In this document: positions 75 through 15,318 of the stretch, one piece after another | How positions within the stretch are numbered: the stretch's first letter is position 1 | How the letters are laid out: each line of letters starts with the position of its first letter | Virus record (IMG/VR): IMGVR_UViG_3300030110_001834 | Coordinates: 1 to 24,105 of that record | From: a virus | DNA length: 24,105 nucleotides | Reading direction: 5' to 3' (one strand) | Notes under the pieces: generated by a model | The model's database searches: none | What the model was told of the DNA's origin: nothing | The model's input: only the letters and a program-made list of their open reading frames with translations | Position numbers and translations under genes: made by a program

Positions 75-3000
75 TTAGTCGTCTTGCAAACTAGGGTCTA
101 GGAGAGGCCACACTAAAGGTCTTAGTTTGTCTCTTACATACACCCCTTCCAGAGATTCACCACGTCTTTCAGCTCGACCTGTCAGTGAACGCTCGACTGT
201 GTCGAAGTCTATTTGGTCGTAAAAATATTTAACATTATATTCAGTTATTTCCTTCATAGCTTTTAATACACCGTCAGGGTTACGGTCTTGGTTTAACAAC
301 GCTCTGTCTAATCGGTCTAGTACTTCAGTTTTCTTAGCTGCTTGGTCACGCACCATAGTTGCTATTTGGTAATTAATGTCTTGCATACTTGAGGTTTCAG
401 TGCTGGTAAAACCTAACCCTTGGGCAATTAACATTGCCTCACTGTAGTATTCAGCGGGCTTTAATTCTACACCCTGGCGGTTTACTAAACCTTCTTGAGA
501 TAGCCGGTACGCTTTTAGAGGGCCACGGAACATTGCGGGTGACATAGTTTCTAAGCCACGTTGGTATTCTTCATCACTAAAATCTTGGGCTGCCCTAAAA
601 GCACTAGCTGCCATGCTACCAAAAGGCCCAGTAAAAGTGTTGTATGCAAAGTTTATCCACGCATTTTCAAAATCACCTTTGGGTAAATCATTTCTAAACC
701 ACAACCCATCTAAACTCGTAGACGCTCCTATGTTAGCATCCGTAATTGCAGACAATGGCCCCATTTCTATGGACTTGGCAAATAAGGCAGCTTGTTCTTC
801 ACTTAACCCTAAAGCGTTAGATATGTCACCATCAGGGCCGAACATTTTAGGGATGAACACAGACCTTATCCACACTTCAGTAGGCACATTTTTAAATGAA
901 AGGAGGTCATAATCTCGCTCCTCTTCTTCATCATCCCCAAACAATTCATTTTTAATCAAGTCAATGCCAGAGGCAAACACAGAGAATAAAGGCATACCGA
1001 CAGTACCTGCGAACAGCCATGTCATTCCTAGCATACCAGCAAATGTCCCCAACGCTTCCATGCGATCCGTGTTAGACATACCCATCCCTTTGTATCCAAA
1101 CACTCCTCGTGCAAAGTTTCTAAAAAGGATAGAAGACATTTGCAAAGGGAACGTCATAAATTGAGTAGCTATGCGCCCAATCGGGCCTTTCATAAGATCA
1201 GGTTTGTTGTAGTTGGTGTAGTTAAAGAGTCCTTTGTACGTCAACTCTACCGCACGTCTCTGTGCTTCTTCTTGAGCTTCCTCCGTAGACAACCCCCTGT
1301 TCTTTGCTTCTGCATACGCTAGTTCAAAAGAAGACATGTACATTATTTCACGGTTCAATCGTTCTGCATGGTGAAATGCACCGCTTAAAGTTTTAACTAC
1401 CATCCGTTGTATTTTGTTACCGGGTCGCCCAAACTCATCACTAGGTGTCCTACTGCGTGAAGTCATGTCTGAAGCATAAGTAGACATAAATATTTCTCTG
1501 CCTACCGCATACGCATGAGCTTTGAGTAGAGCCTCTCGCATTTCAGGGTCACTGTTCTCCATGACATAATTACTTTTCGCCATGTTAACTTCTTTATACT
1601 GGGGGATAAACTCTCCACTTTCATCTTCCACAAACTCTTTTGACCCAAAACCCTGTAATGCAACTATGTTCTTGGTGTATTTAGCAATTATTTTAGAAGT
1701 TGCAACGCCTCCAAATTCTGCACTTAGCACCGGTATACCCACAATAGGTAGCTGAGTAAATTGAATTAACGCAGATTTAGGAGAACTTAACATGTAATAA
1801 AAAACTGCGCTGTTACCCAAGGAAGCGGCTTTATCTAAGAAGTCAGTACGGTCAGGTGGGGCAGTTTCTTGTAAAGCACGCGAACGTAGCACAGCAGTGT
1901 AGGGAGTTATTTTATTTTTAAGTTCTACTGGCATACGTGCAGTTGCAGCTTCTACCCCCGAAATAGCTGCTCTAAGATCATCTGTGTGTTCCAACCTTGC
2001 TAGTTGGTTGGCGGCTGTATTTTGAGAAACAATAAAGTTTCTAAGTGCGTCTGAACTAAATCCTGTTCTTGCTTTTCTTCTTGTAAATCTTTTCCTTATG
2101 TCTGCTTCGGGTAATGTCATCAAATACATTTGGTATATTTGATCTTTTATCTCATTTTCATTAGACAAACCTTTCTTCTCAATAAGGCCGTAAATATCTG
2201 ATAGCATTTTACTGGAACTTTTAAACTCCTCTCCAATCGTTTCAAGCACGGTATCCCCTGCGTCTAACACTTCAATATTTGGGTTCGCTTGTAACTCTTT
2301 AAGTTGCAACTTTCTGTCTACATCAGACTCATACATAAAGTACATCATCTCTCCACCTTCCTTGGCGCGTATAAAATATTGTCCGTAACGCATGAGAGGA
2401 AAATACACTTCCATTTTTTTGGCGCGTTGGTAATTAGACACAATTCTGGCTAGTAATTCTTTTTTCTCCTCTTCAGAATCCATTTCTGCTTGTTCTATCT
2501 TAGCTACGAGTAACTTCTGATGCTCGTCAAACGTTTTTTCATAAGCCTCTTTAGCCATGTTGTAAATTTTAACGCCTCGTTGCCCTCCATTTTCTGCGTC
2601 TTGGAGGCGGCTCCACATATCAAATATTTCTTTTATCTTGTTTTCTCGTTGCGTAACCTCACCTTTGGATTTGTTTACTACGCCAACTGTAACGTTAGAA
2701 GTTCGTTGACTTTGGTACTTATTTATCCTGTCTTTCAAGTCTGGATCATTTTGCAATGCGTCTTGTACATTTTTGTATTTGGAAGGGTCAAAGGCATCTA
2801 TTGTAGCCATGTGCATTATGTCTGCTAATAAATCTGCTCCATCTACAAAAGTCCCGTTGAAATTTTCCCAGGCAGGTATTTTGTCTGCTAATTCTCTTAT
2901 ACGCCTAGCCCGCGTTGCCGACATTTCCATCACCACATCGTTAACTCTAGTGGCGCTTTCTATTCCAAAATTATTTACCAACGTGCGCGTTATACCTTCA

Positions 3001-6000
3001 GTAGTAAACGCTTTAACCAATAGCTTGCGCGTTCTTTCTCCGACTGCTTCTGCCGTAGCGTTTATTATATTAGCCGCTAATTTAGGATCACGGTTTTTGA
3101 CGAGATTACCTATCCCTTTCATCTGTTGATTATAAGTTCTACTCCTATCCACTTTACGTGCTGTGCCTTTGATTTTGTTAGCTACTTTCTTAGCGGCTGC
3201 TATGGTACTTGTAGGCACGCGCTTAGTCGGTCTACCAGCACGTAGCAACTGATCTGTTGTGTCTAACAAAGTAATAAAGCCATTAAGCGTGTTATCACCG
3301 AACCCAAACAGCCGCCTTACTACATTGATAAGTCCTGACAAACCGTTCTTTTGTATGTCTTGTATGTACCCTATGGTGGGTTCTACCGTCATTAAGAACT
3401 CTTGAAATTCTGGCTGGGTAATACCGTAAGCCACAAATTCCATTAGGTCTGTAAATATGTCTAGTTCTTCGGCTAATTTATCCATCTCAGGAGTAGTGCG
3501 GCCATTCGCTTTATCTACAGCGTACTTCATTGCCGCCTCGTCCATCTGGTCAAGTATTTCTTGCCTCAACCTGTTTACTCTTTCAGGTACAGAGTCAGGG
3601 TCGTTTATGGAACGAGCTAATAAATTCATTGTAGCTGCGTGTACAGCCTCGTGCAGAAACGTAACGTTGTTTAATCCTTCGTTGCGAGGAGAAAGGTATA
3701 TAGTGTTTGTCTCATCGAAATACACCCCCGCTGCACCTGTTACAAACTCACTAGCTATTTGAGTATCAACCGCACCTAAGTCTGTAGGTATTACTTGTAG
3801 CTTAGTGTCCTTAATAAAGGGGCGTAGTCTACGCGCTACAAAGCTTTCAAACTTTTTACCCCCCTTTACAATTGAGTCTAATGCACTTTCAAGAGTGACG
3901 TTAGGGTCAGCTAATGCAGGGTTTACTTCTTCCTCTACATACTCTGTTATGGGAGTAGACCTTACAGGTTTTTGCAACCCTGCTTGTTTCTTTATACGTA
4001 AAGCCTTGGCTTCTTTTTTCTCCAAGTCAGTAAACGCACCCCCATCAATAAACTCTTGTGCACGGGTACGTGCTTTTTTATTGCCTTTGTATGCAGGGTT
4101 AAGAGTTATTTCATAGGCATCAGCTAACGCTTCAATACGATCTTCTTTGGTATTAGTTTCTTCTACCGCAGTTGCGTCTCGTATGTTGTTAAGTGTTTTT
4201 TGTTTTTCGTTAAATTCTTTGTTTAGCTCTACTGCTGTTTCACCCCGTTCGGGATCAGTAAACATACCTGCATCGCGTATTTCTCTAAGTTCAGCAACTC
4301 GATTTTTTAGCTCGTTGTATTCTTGGTATGTGTTTATACCTGTTTGTTTTTTACTACGTGTTATAGCGCGTTCAATAATTTGTTGAGGGTTGACCTTGAG
4401 AATTTTGTCTATTCTCGTATTAACCCGCGCCGCAACCTGTGATCTGTTCCCCTGTTCTTTTTTATTTTGATCTACGCGAGCTTGTTCTTCTGGTGTGCGT
4501 GGGGGTTGTGGAGGTCGTCCCCGTTTGCCTTTGGGTTCTAAAGTTACGTCTAAGGTGTATGTTGTTACGTCTTCCTGAGTGTCAGTAAGTAAGTTGGGTA
4601 TTTTGCCCAACGCTTCTTGAGCAGGATTAAAACCTATTTTAAATTCATTTTGTATTTCAGAAATGGTTACCCCATTGTTTTTGGAGATAAACGTAGCTAT
4701 TTGTTTATCCAGGGGAAGGTCTTCTTGTAACTCTCCAACTGGCGGGTCGGTATCTTTTACCTCTATCCCTTTTCCTATCTTAGGGTCTTGCTGGTCTTGC
4801 TGGTCTTGCTCTACAGTTTCTGCTGACTTTAGGCCACCAAGACGGTCAATTTCTTGTTGTAGGAACAGGGCAGCATCATTACCCCCCAACCCTGCTTCTT
4901 GTAAGACTACGTAGGATTTGTACGAATCTAGCCCTGCTTCGTCAGCACCTTCTTCTATTGCTTTCTCCGCTACTGCGGTGATTTGACTTTTTTGGTTATC
5001 ATTAAGAGAAGTTACTTCTGGCGTTGCTGTTTCTTCTGGCGTTGCTGTTTCTTCTTTGGCTAACTCTGCTTCCAACACTTCTTCAGCGGCTATCTTAATA
5101 GCTGTGCCTTCGTCCATGTTTTTATTATTTTGTATTAATCGCTGGGTACGTATTCTTATTTTTTGCTGCGCTTCAGGTGTTTGCAGTAGTCTTTTGCTTG
5201 TGTCTATAGCAATCTGAGCCTGTTGCTTTATTTTTGCATCAACTTCCTGCCGTGCTTGCCGTCTACCTGTGGCTACGTCTACACCTACGTTAAAAGAAGT
5301 ACCAGCTAAAGAACCCGCAGCTTCTGCCGCAGCAGCATCAATAACTCGTTTTATATTTTCTGGGCTAAATACATCCCCTTCTTGTTCACCTAGACTGCGT
5401 TGCCCTGCTATCTGTGTAATTTCTTGAGCACCACCCGTAAGCCCTTCTTCGCCCATCTCCTTCGCAAATTGTTTGGATATGCTTTCAGTTAATTCTTGGC
5501 CGACTTCTTTAGCTAACTGCCGTCTAAGTATGCCACCTACCGGCCCTGCCAAGTCTAATGCGCCAGACGCGATGGCGGTTATGGTAGAAGTATCTTTAGT
5601 GGCGTTAAGGTAGTCACTAATAGCTTGAGCTTGATCTTCTACAGGCAACTCTTTAGTTAAATCCCGTATAAATTCTAGTCTGTTACCTATTGTTTCACTG
5701 CCCGCTAAAGCAGTACCCGCAGTCACCGCACCCGTTGGCCCAGCAACCATAGCGGATGCCATTACCGGTGCAAGCTGGACAGCGCCTGAACCTATGCTGT
5801 ATGCCAACCAATCCCTAAAATCTCCCAAACTCCTTATGTCTGTTATACCCTCAACTCTAGGGCCGTATTCTTGGGCTGTCTCTTGTTGTCTGCGTTGTAA
5901 CTCTGGAAGCGTTTCTAAAATGTCTGCTCTGGATTCAGCAACAGTAGTTTCTACATTACCTCTTAATCTCGCACGTTCTTCTGCATCAGCTTCTTGGTAG

Positions 6001-6398
6001 GTTACAAAATCACCAAGTTCAACAGGGCCAAATACTTTTGCTTCTTTGTTAGCCTCACGGTACAACTCACGAGGGTCAGCGCCTTCGTCTATAGCTTTGT
6101 ATATATCTAATTTTTTAGGGAGTTGGTTTACTCGGAAGGCATCAAACTGTAGGTCAATAGTATCTGGTAAAGTAGCTAACCCTTGAGCAGCACTTGCCGC
6201 GCCCCGCCCTATATTTGAGAAGAACCCTCTTTCACCTTGCTCTGGGCACTCTTCGTTTTCATTTACTACCGTACCATCAGGACATACTTTGGTAGATACC
6301 CCAAACAAGTCTTCAGGCGTAAAAGTACGTTTACCGGGCGCAACTTCAGGTTCCCCAAATAATTCGTTTAGAGTAAAAGTTCTTTTTTGTTCTGCCAA
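75..6398 (-). CDS. Giant polyvalent internal virion protein with zincin and DNA-binding modules
   Basis: 2107 residues. The TTG start at 6398 has GAAGG about nine bases upstream, just after the previous stop, and no ATG is near. Visible order: a duplicated KRTFTxxxLFG motif (5-33); a CPDGTVV...ECP bracket (C39, C51); hydrophobic helices near 200-240; an FtsK-gamma-like winged helix at about 564-615; an AT-hook-like KGKRGRPP at 623-630; charged helices; a zincin-like domain with HEAVH (H916, E917, H920) and a candidate third ligand Glu987 in EFVAYG; a helical region with YFPLMRYGQYF; and hydrophobic segments near 1525-1565 and 1783-1811. Such mosaics match 'large polyvalent proteins' and giant internal virion proteins. 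Presumably packaged and ejected to help DNA cross the envelope. The 74 bases beyond its stop hold no recognisable gene start or terminator. Confidence 0.8.
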   Translation of the reverse strand: MAEQKRTFTLNELFGEPEVAPGKRTFTPEDLFGVSTKVCPDGTVVNENEECPEQGERGFFSNIGRGAASAAQGLATLPDTIDLQFDAFRVNQLPKKLDIYKAIDEGADPRELYREANKEAKVFGPVELGDFVTYQEADAEERARLRGNVETTVAESRADILETLPELQRRQQETAQEYGPRVEGITDIRSLGDFRDWLAYSIGSGAVQLAPVMASAMVAGPTGAVTAGTALAGSETIGNRLEFIRDLTKELPVEDQAQAISDYLNATKDTSTITAIASGALDLAGPVGGILRRQLAKEVGQELTESISKQFAKEMGEEGLTGGAQEITQIAGQRSLGEQEGDVFSPENIKRVIDAAAAEAAGSLAGTSFNVGVDVATGRRQARQEVDAKIKQQAQIAIDTSKRLLQTPEAQQKIRIRTQRLIQNNKNMDEGTAIKIAAEEVLEAELAKEETATPEETATPEVTSLNDNQKSQITAVAEKAIEEGADEAGLDSYKSYVVLQEAGLGGNDAALFLQQEIDRLGGLKSAETVEQDQQDQQDPKIGKGIEVKDTDPPVGELQEDLPLDKQIATFISKNNGVTISEIQNEFKIGFNPAQEALGKIPNLLTDTQEDVTTYTLDVTLEPKGKRGRPPQPPRTPEEQARVDQNKKEQGNRSQVAARVNTRIDKILKVNPQQIIERAITRSKKQTGINTYQEYNELKNRVAELREIRDAGMFTDPERGETAVELNKEFNEKQKTLNNIRDATAVEETNTKEDRIEALADAYEITLNPAYKGNKKARTRAQEFIDGGAFTDLEKKEAKALRIKKQAGLQKPVRSTPITEYVEEEVNPALADPNVTLESALDSIVKGGKKFESFVARRLRPFIKDTKLQVIPTDLGAVDTQIASEFVTGAAGVYFDETNTIYLSPRNEGLNNVTFLHEAVHAATMNLLARSINDPDSVPERVNRLRQEILDQMDEAAMKYAVDKANGRTTPEMDKLAEELDIFTDLMEFVAYGITQPEFQEFLMTVEPTIGYIQDIQKNGLSGLINVVRRLFGFGDNTLNGFITLLDTTDQLLRAGRPTKRVPTSTIAAAKKVANKIKGTARKVDRSRTYNQQMKGIGNLVKNRDPKLAANIINATAEAVGERTRKLLVKAFTTEGITRTLVNNFGIESATRVNDVVMEMSATRARRIRELADKIPAWENFNGTFVDGADLLADIMHMATIDAFDPSKYKNVQDALQNDPDLKDRINKYQSQRTSNVTVGVVNKSKGEVTQRENKIKEIFDMWSRLQDAENGGQRGVKIYNMAKEAYEKTFDEHQKLLVAKIEQAEMDSEEEKKELLARIVSNYQRAKKMEVYFPLMRYGQYFIRAKEGGEMMYFMYESDVDRKLQLKELQANPNIEVLDAGDTVLETIGEEFKSSSKMLSDIYGLIEKKGLSNENEIKDQIYQMYLMTLPEADIRKRFTRRKARTGFSSDALRNFIVSQNTAANQLARLEHTDDLRAAISGVEAATARMPVELKNKITPYTAVLRSRALQETAPPDRTDFLDKAASLGNSAVFYYMLSSPKSALIQFTQLPIVGIPVLSAEFGGVATSKIIAKYTKNIVALQGFGSKEFVEDESGEFIPQYKEVNMAKSNYVMENSDPEMREALLKAHAYAVGREIFMSTYASDMTSRSRTPSDEFGRPGNKIQRMVVKTLSGAFHHAERLNREIMYMSSFELAYAEAKNRGLSTEEAQEEAQRRAVELTYKGLFNYTNYNKPDLMKGPIGRIATQFMTFPLQMSSILFRNFARGVFGYKGMGMSNTDRMEALGTFAGMLGMTWLFAGTVGMPLFSVFASGIDLIKNELFGDDEEEERDYDLLSFKNVPTEVWIRSVFIPKMFGPDGDISNALGLSEEQAALFAKSIEMGPLSAITDANIGASTSLDGLWFRNDLPKGDFENAWINFAYNTFTGPFGSMAASAFRAAQDFSDEEYQRGLETMSPAMFRGPLKAYRLSQEGLVNRQGVELKPAEYYSEAMLIAQGLGFTSTETSSMQDINYQIATMVRDQAAKKTEVLDRLDRALLNQDRNPDGVLKAMKEITEYNVKYFYDQIDFDTVERSLTGRAERRGESLEGVYVRDKLRPLVWPLLDPSLQDD
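4784..4810 (-). repeat. Triple 9-bp tandem repeat in giant gene
   Basis: Three exact copies of ggtcttgct, encoding a Gln/Gln/Asp repeat in an acidic linker just before the FtsK-gamma-like segment. Confidence 0.9.
5015..5050 (-). repeat. Exact 18-bp tandem duplication in giant gene
   Basis: The 18-mer beginning cttctggcgttgctgttt at 5015 is repeated exactly at 5033. It encodes two copies of a Glu/Thr/Ala/Pro hexapeptide in a probable linker upstream of the winged helix. Confidence 0.9.
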
Positions 6399-8543: not shown

Positions 8544-9554
8544 CTAGTCAATTACACCAAGATCGCGCATAGCTGTTTCTGCTGCGCTTTTAGCGTCTAA
8601 TCCTATTTTTATGTAGTAGTCGTATTGGTTAGGGAAGGCTTTCATTGTCGCATCTGTCCATGCAGGGCTTGGCCCACTTGCAGCAGCTCCAGAAGTCTCA
8701 TCCGCGTTATACTTGTTAAGTAAATCCGTAATGCCATAAATATCTGCGGCTCCCCCGGCCAGACTGCTTAGTCCTGATGGACTGTAGTAGCTGTAACTTT
8801 GCGTACCTAAAGGCAACCCACCCAATAAGTCTTGCATATACTTTACTTGCCTGTAAGGGAAATCTCGTTCTTCTTCAAACTGGGCCATATCTGCGGCTAT
8901 ACCTTCAGCGGTTACTGCACGTTGGTCTTTACCCACAGAAGCTAAATCTTTCAGTGCACCCAACCCGTACTGTCTGTCTTTGTTAAACATATCTTGCGCG
9001 TTAGCGAAAGCGTCTCTGTAACCTTCGCCGCGTATGTTGGACAAATTTCCAAGAAGCCCCGCAGTTAGTTCCCCTTCCCCAACACCTTGTCTACTACCAC
9101 CAAAAGCTCCTGCTCGTGCGTACTTATCCCCTAAGTCGCGCATTGCTACATCGTAGTCACTTCTAGCTCCTGCAAACTGTGGCTCTAGTGCGGCTTCAAG
9201 GTACGGGTTCATGTAATTTTGAACCACATTGCCAGAGGCAGGAGTGTAATAACCTTCCCCTGCTGTAGCCCCTGCTGCTATTTCTTCTGGTGTGGGTAGC
9301 GTGTATTCAGAACCTGTAAAAGACCCTGTAGTAAATGCTTGAGGCACACCTAAACTAGCAAGTCCTGAATAGGCTTGAGTCTGTAGTGGAGAAAAATCGG
9401 CTGTTAAATCACCCCCGTAGGCCGTGTAAGGCATTGAAGCCACCGCTTCGCCACGTCCCAACATTTCAGAAACGTATGGCCCAGCCCATGAGGAAAGAGA
9501 CGATTCTTCTGCTCTTTTTTCCTGCCCAGATAAAGTGTTATCGCCGTTTGACAT
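8544..9554 (-). CDS. Internal virion-cassette protein (YMNPYL / GAFGGSRQ type)
   Basis: 336 residues, no signal peptide. After a disordered N-terminus, the conserved core has YMNPYLEAALEPQF (114-127) leading into a helix, then ARAGAFGGSRQGVGEGELTA (147-165 or so) and a long helical region with ANAQDMFNKDRQ. This NPY...GAFGGSRQ arrangement is frequent in marine phage proteins encoded next to giant internal virion proteins (recollection). The C-terminal third is rich in G, S, Y and A. ATG at 9554 with GAGGT six to seven bases upstream; eight bases separate it from the 223-residue gene. Probably a capsid-internal or ejection protein; not assigned to a named family. Confidence 0.65.
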   Translation of the reverse strand: MSNGDNTLSGQEKRAEESSLSSWAGPYVSEMLGRGEAVASMPYTAYGGDLTADFSPLQTQAYSGLASLGVPQAFTTGSFTGSEYTLPTPEEIAAGATAGEGYYTPASGNVVQNYMNPYLEAALEPQFAGARSDYDVAMRDLGDKYARAGAFGGSRQGVGEGELTAGLLGNLSNIRGEGYRDAFANAQDMFNKDRQYGLGALKDLASVGKDQRAVTAEGIAADMAQFEEERDFPYRQVKYMQDLLGGLPLGTQSYSYYSPSGLSSLAGGAADIYGITDLLNKYNADETSGAAASGPSPAWTDATMKAFPNQYDYYIKIGLDAKSAAETAMRDLGVID

Positions 9555-14883: not shown

Positions 14884-15318
14884 TTATTCCGCATATTCGC
14901 CTGTTTTAATTAAGTCGGTAAGCTCTAATGCTCTACCACCTACTTGTTTAGCCCAACGTGAGTCTAAAAACTCCGTAGCGGCTTCTGCATATTCTTCCCG
15001 TTCCATCGCGGATAAAGCGCGTTTGAAACCTCGTAACCGAGTTGCACCGAGATTAAAGCTAATGTCAATCATAGCATCTCTGCGTACATCATCTAGCTTG
15101 TTAAACCACGGATATTCTTTTGCTAACTCTTTGATAACACGTTCAATATCGTTCTCAAGCAAGTATTCTACTTCATCTTCTGACAGACCCATGCCGCCGC
15201 GCTGGTCAATGTTTCGCCCTACTCCTACAGTAATCTTCCCTTCTGAGCACTCGTAAGCATGAGTTTCTACACCTTCATGGCGCTTTAACATGGCAATTAA
15301 CTTTTTCATGTTGCTCAC
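14884..15318 (-). CDS. Endolysin: GH24 (T4/P22-type) lysozyme
   Basis: 144 residues, close to the usual size of a single-domain phage muramidase. The catalytic signature of glycoside hydrolase family 24 is visible: Glu15 (KRHEG), Cys24 and Thr30 (ITVGVG) with the E-8-C-5-T spacing; Cys takes the place of the Asp20 found in T4 lysozyme, a known variant of the triad. DISFNLGATRLRGFKRAL is the conserved second-lobe helix. It cleaves the MurNAc-GlcNAc bond of peptidoglycan. No signal peptide or SAR segment, so export needs the holin. The GTG start overlaps the holin stop (GTGA) with a poor ribosome site; an ATG three codons later (15309) gives MKKLIAMLKRHEG and may be the true start. Confidence 0.92.
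   Translation of the reverse strand: MSNMKKLIAMLKRHEGVETHAYECSEGKITVGVGRNIDQRGGMGLSEDEVEYLLENDIERVIKELAKEYPWFNKLDDVRRDAMIDISFNLGATRLRGFKRALSAMEREEYAEAATEFLDSRWAKQVGGRALELTDLIKTGEYAE

Follow-up and report, generated by a model that had tools for sequence, protein, structure and literature searches.

A conserved AT-hook and a variable FtsK-gamma-like winged helix in the linker of a giant, probably ejected phage protein

Both FtsK winged helices in polyvalent proteins and an FtsK_gamma domain in a phage small terminase are already known. An "FtsK wHTH domain" is listed among the rare DNA-binding domains of polyvalent proteins, for example in Cupriavidus WP_029307715 (Iyer et al. 2017, PMC5512222), and FtsK_gamma is found fused to the small terminase of the Bacillus phages Sam46 and Sam112 (PMC8190038). 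Here we describe a related module in a virus record of 24,105 bases, referred to below as the window, which is the whole stretch of DNA that was analysed and corresponds to a genome fragment. The protein that carries it resembles the polyvalent proteins (PMC5512222) in its giant size and in combining a zincin metallopeptidase, an LPD39 domain and exchangeable effector or DNA-binding domains, but in the present family an AT-hook is conserved and the winged helix varies, whereas the term AT-hook is absent from the main text of that paper. With the gamma domain of FtsK/SpoIIIE (PF09397; PDB 2ve8, 2j5o) the module shares the pattern IS-x-IQ-x-x-F-K-I-G-F-N over helices 1 to 3 and a predicted winged helix; it differs in lying within a giant phage protein of virion type that has no motor, in the replacement of the KOPS residues and in having fewer residues from helix 3 to the wing. 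The Sam46/Sam112 terminase likewise illustrates the reuse by phages of a gamma domain without its motor, but that protein serves in packaging and its DNA-binding residues are conserved, whereas here the carrier is a probably ejected giant in which such residues are replaced. Finally, the PLxRFG/DarB-like giants of Serratia phage Parlo, Erwinia phage PEp14 and Vibrio phage douglas 12A4 have a homologous C-terminal half, with 24-26% identity, and no FtsK_gamma match was found inside the giant of cultured phages in the six records examined. What the present locus adds is the conserved AT-hook and the exchange of domains in a linker slot: captured host DNA-binding modules sit, in swappable form, beside the AT-hook in the flexible linker of a giant that is probably ejected.

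The giant protein and its virion context

Nearly all long open reading frames of the record lie on the minus strand, and the features of the giant and its neighbourhood are collected in Table 1. The C-terminal half of the giant carries LPD39, PLxRFG and a DarB-like match (PHROG 10089, E=6e-56). The zincin region around HEAVH matched internal virion proteins of podoviruses, including annotated internal virion or DNA ejectosome proteins of Pseudomonas phages, and also a hypothetical protein of an Autographiviridae phage of Limnohabitans. Several unrelated domains are thus combined in this family, namely LPD39, the HEAVH metallopeptidase and PLxRFG in the giant itself and an ART-PolyVal domain in the homologue L043. 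Because of the LPD39, PLxRFG, DarB-like, zincin and ejection-family matches, we class the giant among the polyvalent proteins as Iyer et al. 2017 (PMC5512222) use the term.

Table 1. Features of the giant protein and its gene cluster (window coordinates)
Feature	Residues	Position	Strand	Basis or remark
Giant polyvalent-type virion protein	2,107 aa	75-6398	minus	TTG start; LPD39, PLxRFG, DarB-like match
PLxRFG domain	1330-1825	924-2411	minus	NCBIfam NF032893, 308.8 bits, cut-off 100
LPD39 (large polyvalent protein associated domain 39)	1125-1332	2403-3026	minus	Pfam 44.2 bits, cut-off 27
HEAVH zinc-metallopeptidase (zincin) motif	916-920	3639-3653	minus	H916, E917, H920 invariant in alignment A2
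AT-hook KGKRGRPP	623-630	4509-4532	minus	core in 23/32 distinct relatives
FtsK-gamma-like winged-helix module	556-616	4551-4733	minus	Pfam FtsK_gamma, profile vs PDB, AlphaFold2
Beta-hairpin wing (predicted)	604-615	4554-4589	minus	AlphaFold2
Helix 2-loop-helix 3 of helix-turn-helix core	579-598	4605-4664	minus	predicted helices 4641-4664, 4605-4631
Gene in the giant's cluster, DNA ejection protein family match		8544-9554	minus	PHROG 4287, E=5e-8

Judging by the genes around it and by its homology to internal virion proteins, the giant would be delivered into the host with the DNA, and the phage is probably short-tailed. The first-pass annotation had taken the giant for an ejected virion protein without an FtsK motor. 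The LPD39/PLxRFG domains, the zincin-region matches and the ejection-family gene of the same cluster make it very probable that the giant is a virion protein of the internal or ejected kind, and the second part of that view agrees with the lack of FtsK/SpoIIIE motor matches in the giant in Pfam, PHROGs and NCBIfam. Inside the virion gene cluster, a protein of 144 aa (window 14884-15318, minus strand) matched phage endolysin and baseplate/internal virion lysozyme families.

FtsK-gamma homology and predicted fold of the module

Residues 564-597 of the giant read DKQIATFISKNNGVTISEIQNEFKIGFNPAQEAL and belong to an FtsK-gamma-like segment that spans residues 563-615, with the AT-hook following at residues 623-630. 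This arrangement, FtsK-gamma-like residues and then KGKRGRPP, had been noticed in the first-pass annotation, the residues and coordinates of which proved exact (4509-4709, minus strand). Pfam FtsK_gamma (PF09397) was the best DNA-binding match, with 14.2 bits for the full protein and 17.5-18.8 bits for the segment, so that the window copy stays under the Pfam gathering cut-off of 30.6 bits. When the segment was compared with the PDB by phmmer, FtsK gamma entries were ranked at the top with E=0.027, and a profile built from three orthologous copies (window, L008 and L009) reached significant similarity to solved FtsK gamma domains, with E=3.4e-5. Only FtsK gamma was retrieved below E=0.001 by this profile, the first other protein appearing at E=0.23, and hhalign aligned the same profile to the module of the distant giant L090 with a probability of 93%. 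Searches by tblastn with the module found no relative among genome contigs and only weak Vibrio matches among phages and plasmids (best E 0.1 and 0.8).

AlphaFold2 modelling of the trimmed segment produced three helices followed by a two-stranded wing in the order H-H-H-E-E (pLDDT 87.8, pTM 0.71). In an earlier run with 100 aa, which included flanks of low confidence, the three helices were obtained without a confident wing, and trimming resolved it. Residues 556-616 are therefore confidently predicted to fold as a winged helix, of which helix 2 and the loop are almost unchanged across the window, L008, L009 and L069. By Foldseek and VIA-align, the model matched generic winged helices best in the PDB, with VIA Z values reaching 9.3; FtsK gamma 2j5o was among the Foldseek matches at rank 34 (25% identity, TMq 0.64). 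An identification as FtsK gamma from the structure search by itself was rejected, as winged helices of the ArsR/MarR, BirA and Z-alpha types score equal or higher; since that search fails to single out FtsK gamma, the family assignment rests on sequence. In BFVD, the best match of the model was A0A516LPI6_1 (E=2e-4, 31% identity), which is part of a viral protein with a length of 1,006 aa or more, possibly another module-bearing giant.

The sub-threshold Pfam score of the window copy and the many generic winged helices that outrank FtsK gamma in the structure search could be taken to mean that the resemblance is fortuitous and the module is not FtsK-gamma. We consider this extremely improbable in view of the profile match, in which FtsK gamma stands alone under 0.001, of the hhalign alignment with the L090 module and of homologous copies in the same linker that exceed the Pfam cut-off. 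Homology of the winged-helix module to FtsK gamma is supported by these sequence comparisons. The first-pass assignment, made dependent on a profile match or a predicted winged helix, has obtained both.

Winged helix, AT-hook and linker among the relatives

The winged-helix module of the window is shared by L008 and L009, which are 49% and 45% identical to the giant overall. In distant giants the same linker contains FtsK_gamma matches above the cut-off in L068/L069 (37.6 bits) and L090 (36.4 bits), and a weaker one in L049 (18.3 bits). A winged helix is present in 6 of the 42 distinct giants, in two of them above the Pfam cut-off, and requires at least five gains or losses on a tree of these giants that was computed from the C-terminal part by a quick method and in which the placement of L068 is unsure from its long branch. 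L009 and L069 do not form an unbiased sample, because the module itself served as the query with which they were retrieved. The closest relative of the giant, its sister L002 (63% identical), is without the winged helix and retains the AT-hook. Other domains occupy the linker elsewhere: in L043 it holds the ART-PolyVal domain, an ADP-ribosyltransferase, at 8934-9254 (Pfam), and in L091 an ART-like segment recognised by eye, at the place where its sister L090 carries the winged helix. As judged from these sequences, the linker that follows the N-terminal part and precedes the zincin is a slot for exchangeable domains.

Weak FtsK_gamma matches in L011 and L012 were set aside, as they lie in frames of 43 aa outside the giant. 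In Serratia phage Parlo, the giant has no FtsK-gamma domain and such a domain is encoded as a separate small gene, gp18 (L081:432-620), the product of which is a stand-alone FtsK-gamma-like protein of 62 aa that scores 37 bits, above the Pfam cut-off.

The AT-hook has a GRP core with basic flanks (PKGKRGRPP). Of 32 distinct giants, 23 have a core of this kind within 330 residues upstream of HExxH, where shuffled linkers would give 0.5, and only two have one anywhere downstream of HExxH, which bears out the AT-hook called at residues 623-630 in the first-pass annotation. It occurs with or without the winged helix, and none was found in L049, L069 and L090, which carry the winged helix. By sequence conservation, the AT-hook is the conserved predicted DNA-binding element of the giant family and the winged helix the variable one. 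Within the literature collection searched, no paper linked an AT-hook with an internal virion protein of phages. The presence of the AT-hook in most relatives provides a simple, testable hypothesis for the retention of giant internal virion proteins on DNA during packaging and entry.

Possible roles of the module

The explanation that we find rather probable is that the giant is a polyvalent virion protein that would be ejected into the cell, in which the AT-hook would anchor the protein to DNA and the winged helix would be an interchangeable, additional docking domain. We infer that the giant is packaged with the DNA and ejected alongside it. The presumably disordered linker that separates the zincin from the N-terminal part would bear elements for docking to DNA or to the host. 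Among these, the AT-hook would most likely grip the AT-rich minor groove and keep the giant attached to the phage DNA inside the capsid or, during entry, to DNA inside the cell, and the winged helix derived from FtsK gamma would have been repeatedly gained or lost in the linker slot as an accessory docking domain beside it. After entry, the zincin may free pieces of the linker, as Iyer et al. proposed for the release of pieces of polyvalent proteins (PMC5512222).

Whether the winged helix reads DNA like FtsK can be judged from the residues that in E. coli FtsK read KOPS. A triple alanine mutant of R1300, E1303 and E1306 is KOPS-blind in that protein (PMC2680272), and, with the numbering anchored at RQFRIGYNR = 1289-1297, the aligned positions of the giant are E, G and P in an alignment made by eye. 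The recognition helix is almost devoid of basic residues in the window, L008 and L009, and the stretch of helices 2 and 3 has a net charge of -1 in the window, where L069 has +6 and FtsK gamma of P. aeruginosa has +3; this argues against simple binding of DNA by the winged helix. Overall acidity of the module was dropped as a disproof of DNA binding, since L090, above the cut-off, is acidic as well. KOPS/SRS octamers occur 0-2 times per strand in the window, where no strand-skewed octamer went beyond the Markov-model expectation and the strongest were GAA/AAG strings on the coding strand. Clear homology and fold, together with the basic FtsK-gamma modules that occupy the same slot in L069 and L049, would suit a working reader that, like FtsK/SpoIIIE, is specific for a sequence, in this case a skewed octamer of the phage or the host, but the replaced KOPS residues and the octamer counts make such a reader unlikely. 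The KOPS-style recognition module with skewed KOPS-like octamers that the first-pass annotation had envisaged was accordingly not borne out in the window. Because the KOPS-reading residues are gone while the helix-turn-helix core is kept, the winged helix may recognise, jointly with the AT-hook, some other feature of DNA, or else bind a protein.

The latter option, a narrower form of the favoured explanation, supposes that the winged helix has switched from binding DNA to binding protein and docks on a virion or host protein while the AT-hook binds DNA. We hold it as a tentative possibility. The near absence of basic residues from the recognition helix is consistent with it, as are the protein partner of FtsK gamma, XerD (PMC5052618), and the pattern of selection: in a 14-codon core, the window and L008 differ at four codons, all four synonymous and none non-synonymous, and the window and L009 differ non-synonymously at only 1 of 14, while over the whole module the amino acid is changed at 30 of 55 codons between the window and L008. 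The core thus appears from codon comparison to be kept under purifying selection as the tail of the recognition helix and the wing drift; against protein docking, the conserved residues double as the structural core of the fold. The same codon data, with the confidently predicted fold, render it quite unlikely that the module is a relic in decay, once captured from FtsK gamma but now functionless and heading for loss as in L002, even though the winged helix is missing from that closest relative and from most giants. Very unlikely, in turn, is a mimicry of FtsK gamma toward the host Xer recombinase, in which the KOPS residues would be lost and most of the XerD-contact loop kept. Among the contact positions (PMC5052618, table 1), Q1288, I1293, G1294 and N1296 are identical in the giant, R1292 is replaced by K and the critical R1289 by N. 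The retained residues fall within and beside the stretch of nine FtsK residues that suffices to stimulate XerCD in E. coli (PMC5052618), but their conservation is no proof of XerD binding, because the same positions belong to the core of the fold. If the mimicry were true, the injected giant could set off Xer recombination, or hijack it, as it enters the cell.

Another candidate docking element lies at the N-terminus of the giant, where residues 6-35 (window 6294-6383, minus strand) contain a short aromatic motif in tandem, RTFTLNELFG / RTFTPEDLFG. The N-termini of many giants (L002, L004, L008, L009, L016, L024, L048, L091 and others) carry two to five tandem repeats of such a motif, the sequence of which is entirely different between relatives, such as APWEENYDQ in L008, NPFLQYV in L016, FVPFTGKLD in L024 and NPYAQFVQQ in L091. 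L049 and L096 have one such motif in common, though the remainder of both giants differs. The tandem motif resembles a multi-copy tag for docking or packaging that is swapped among phages.
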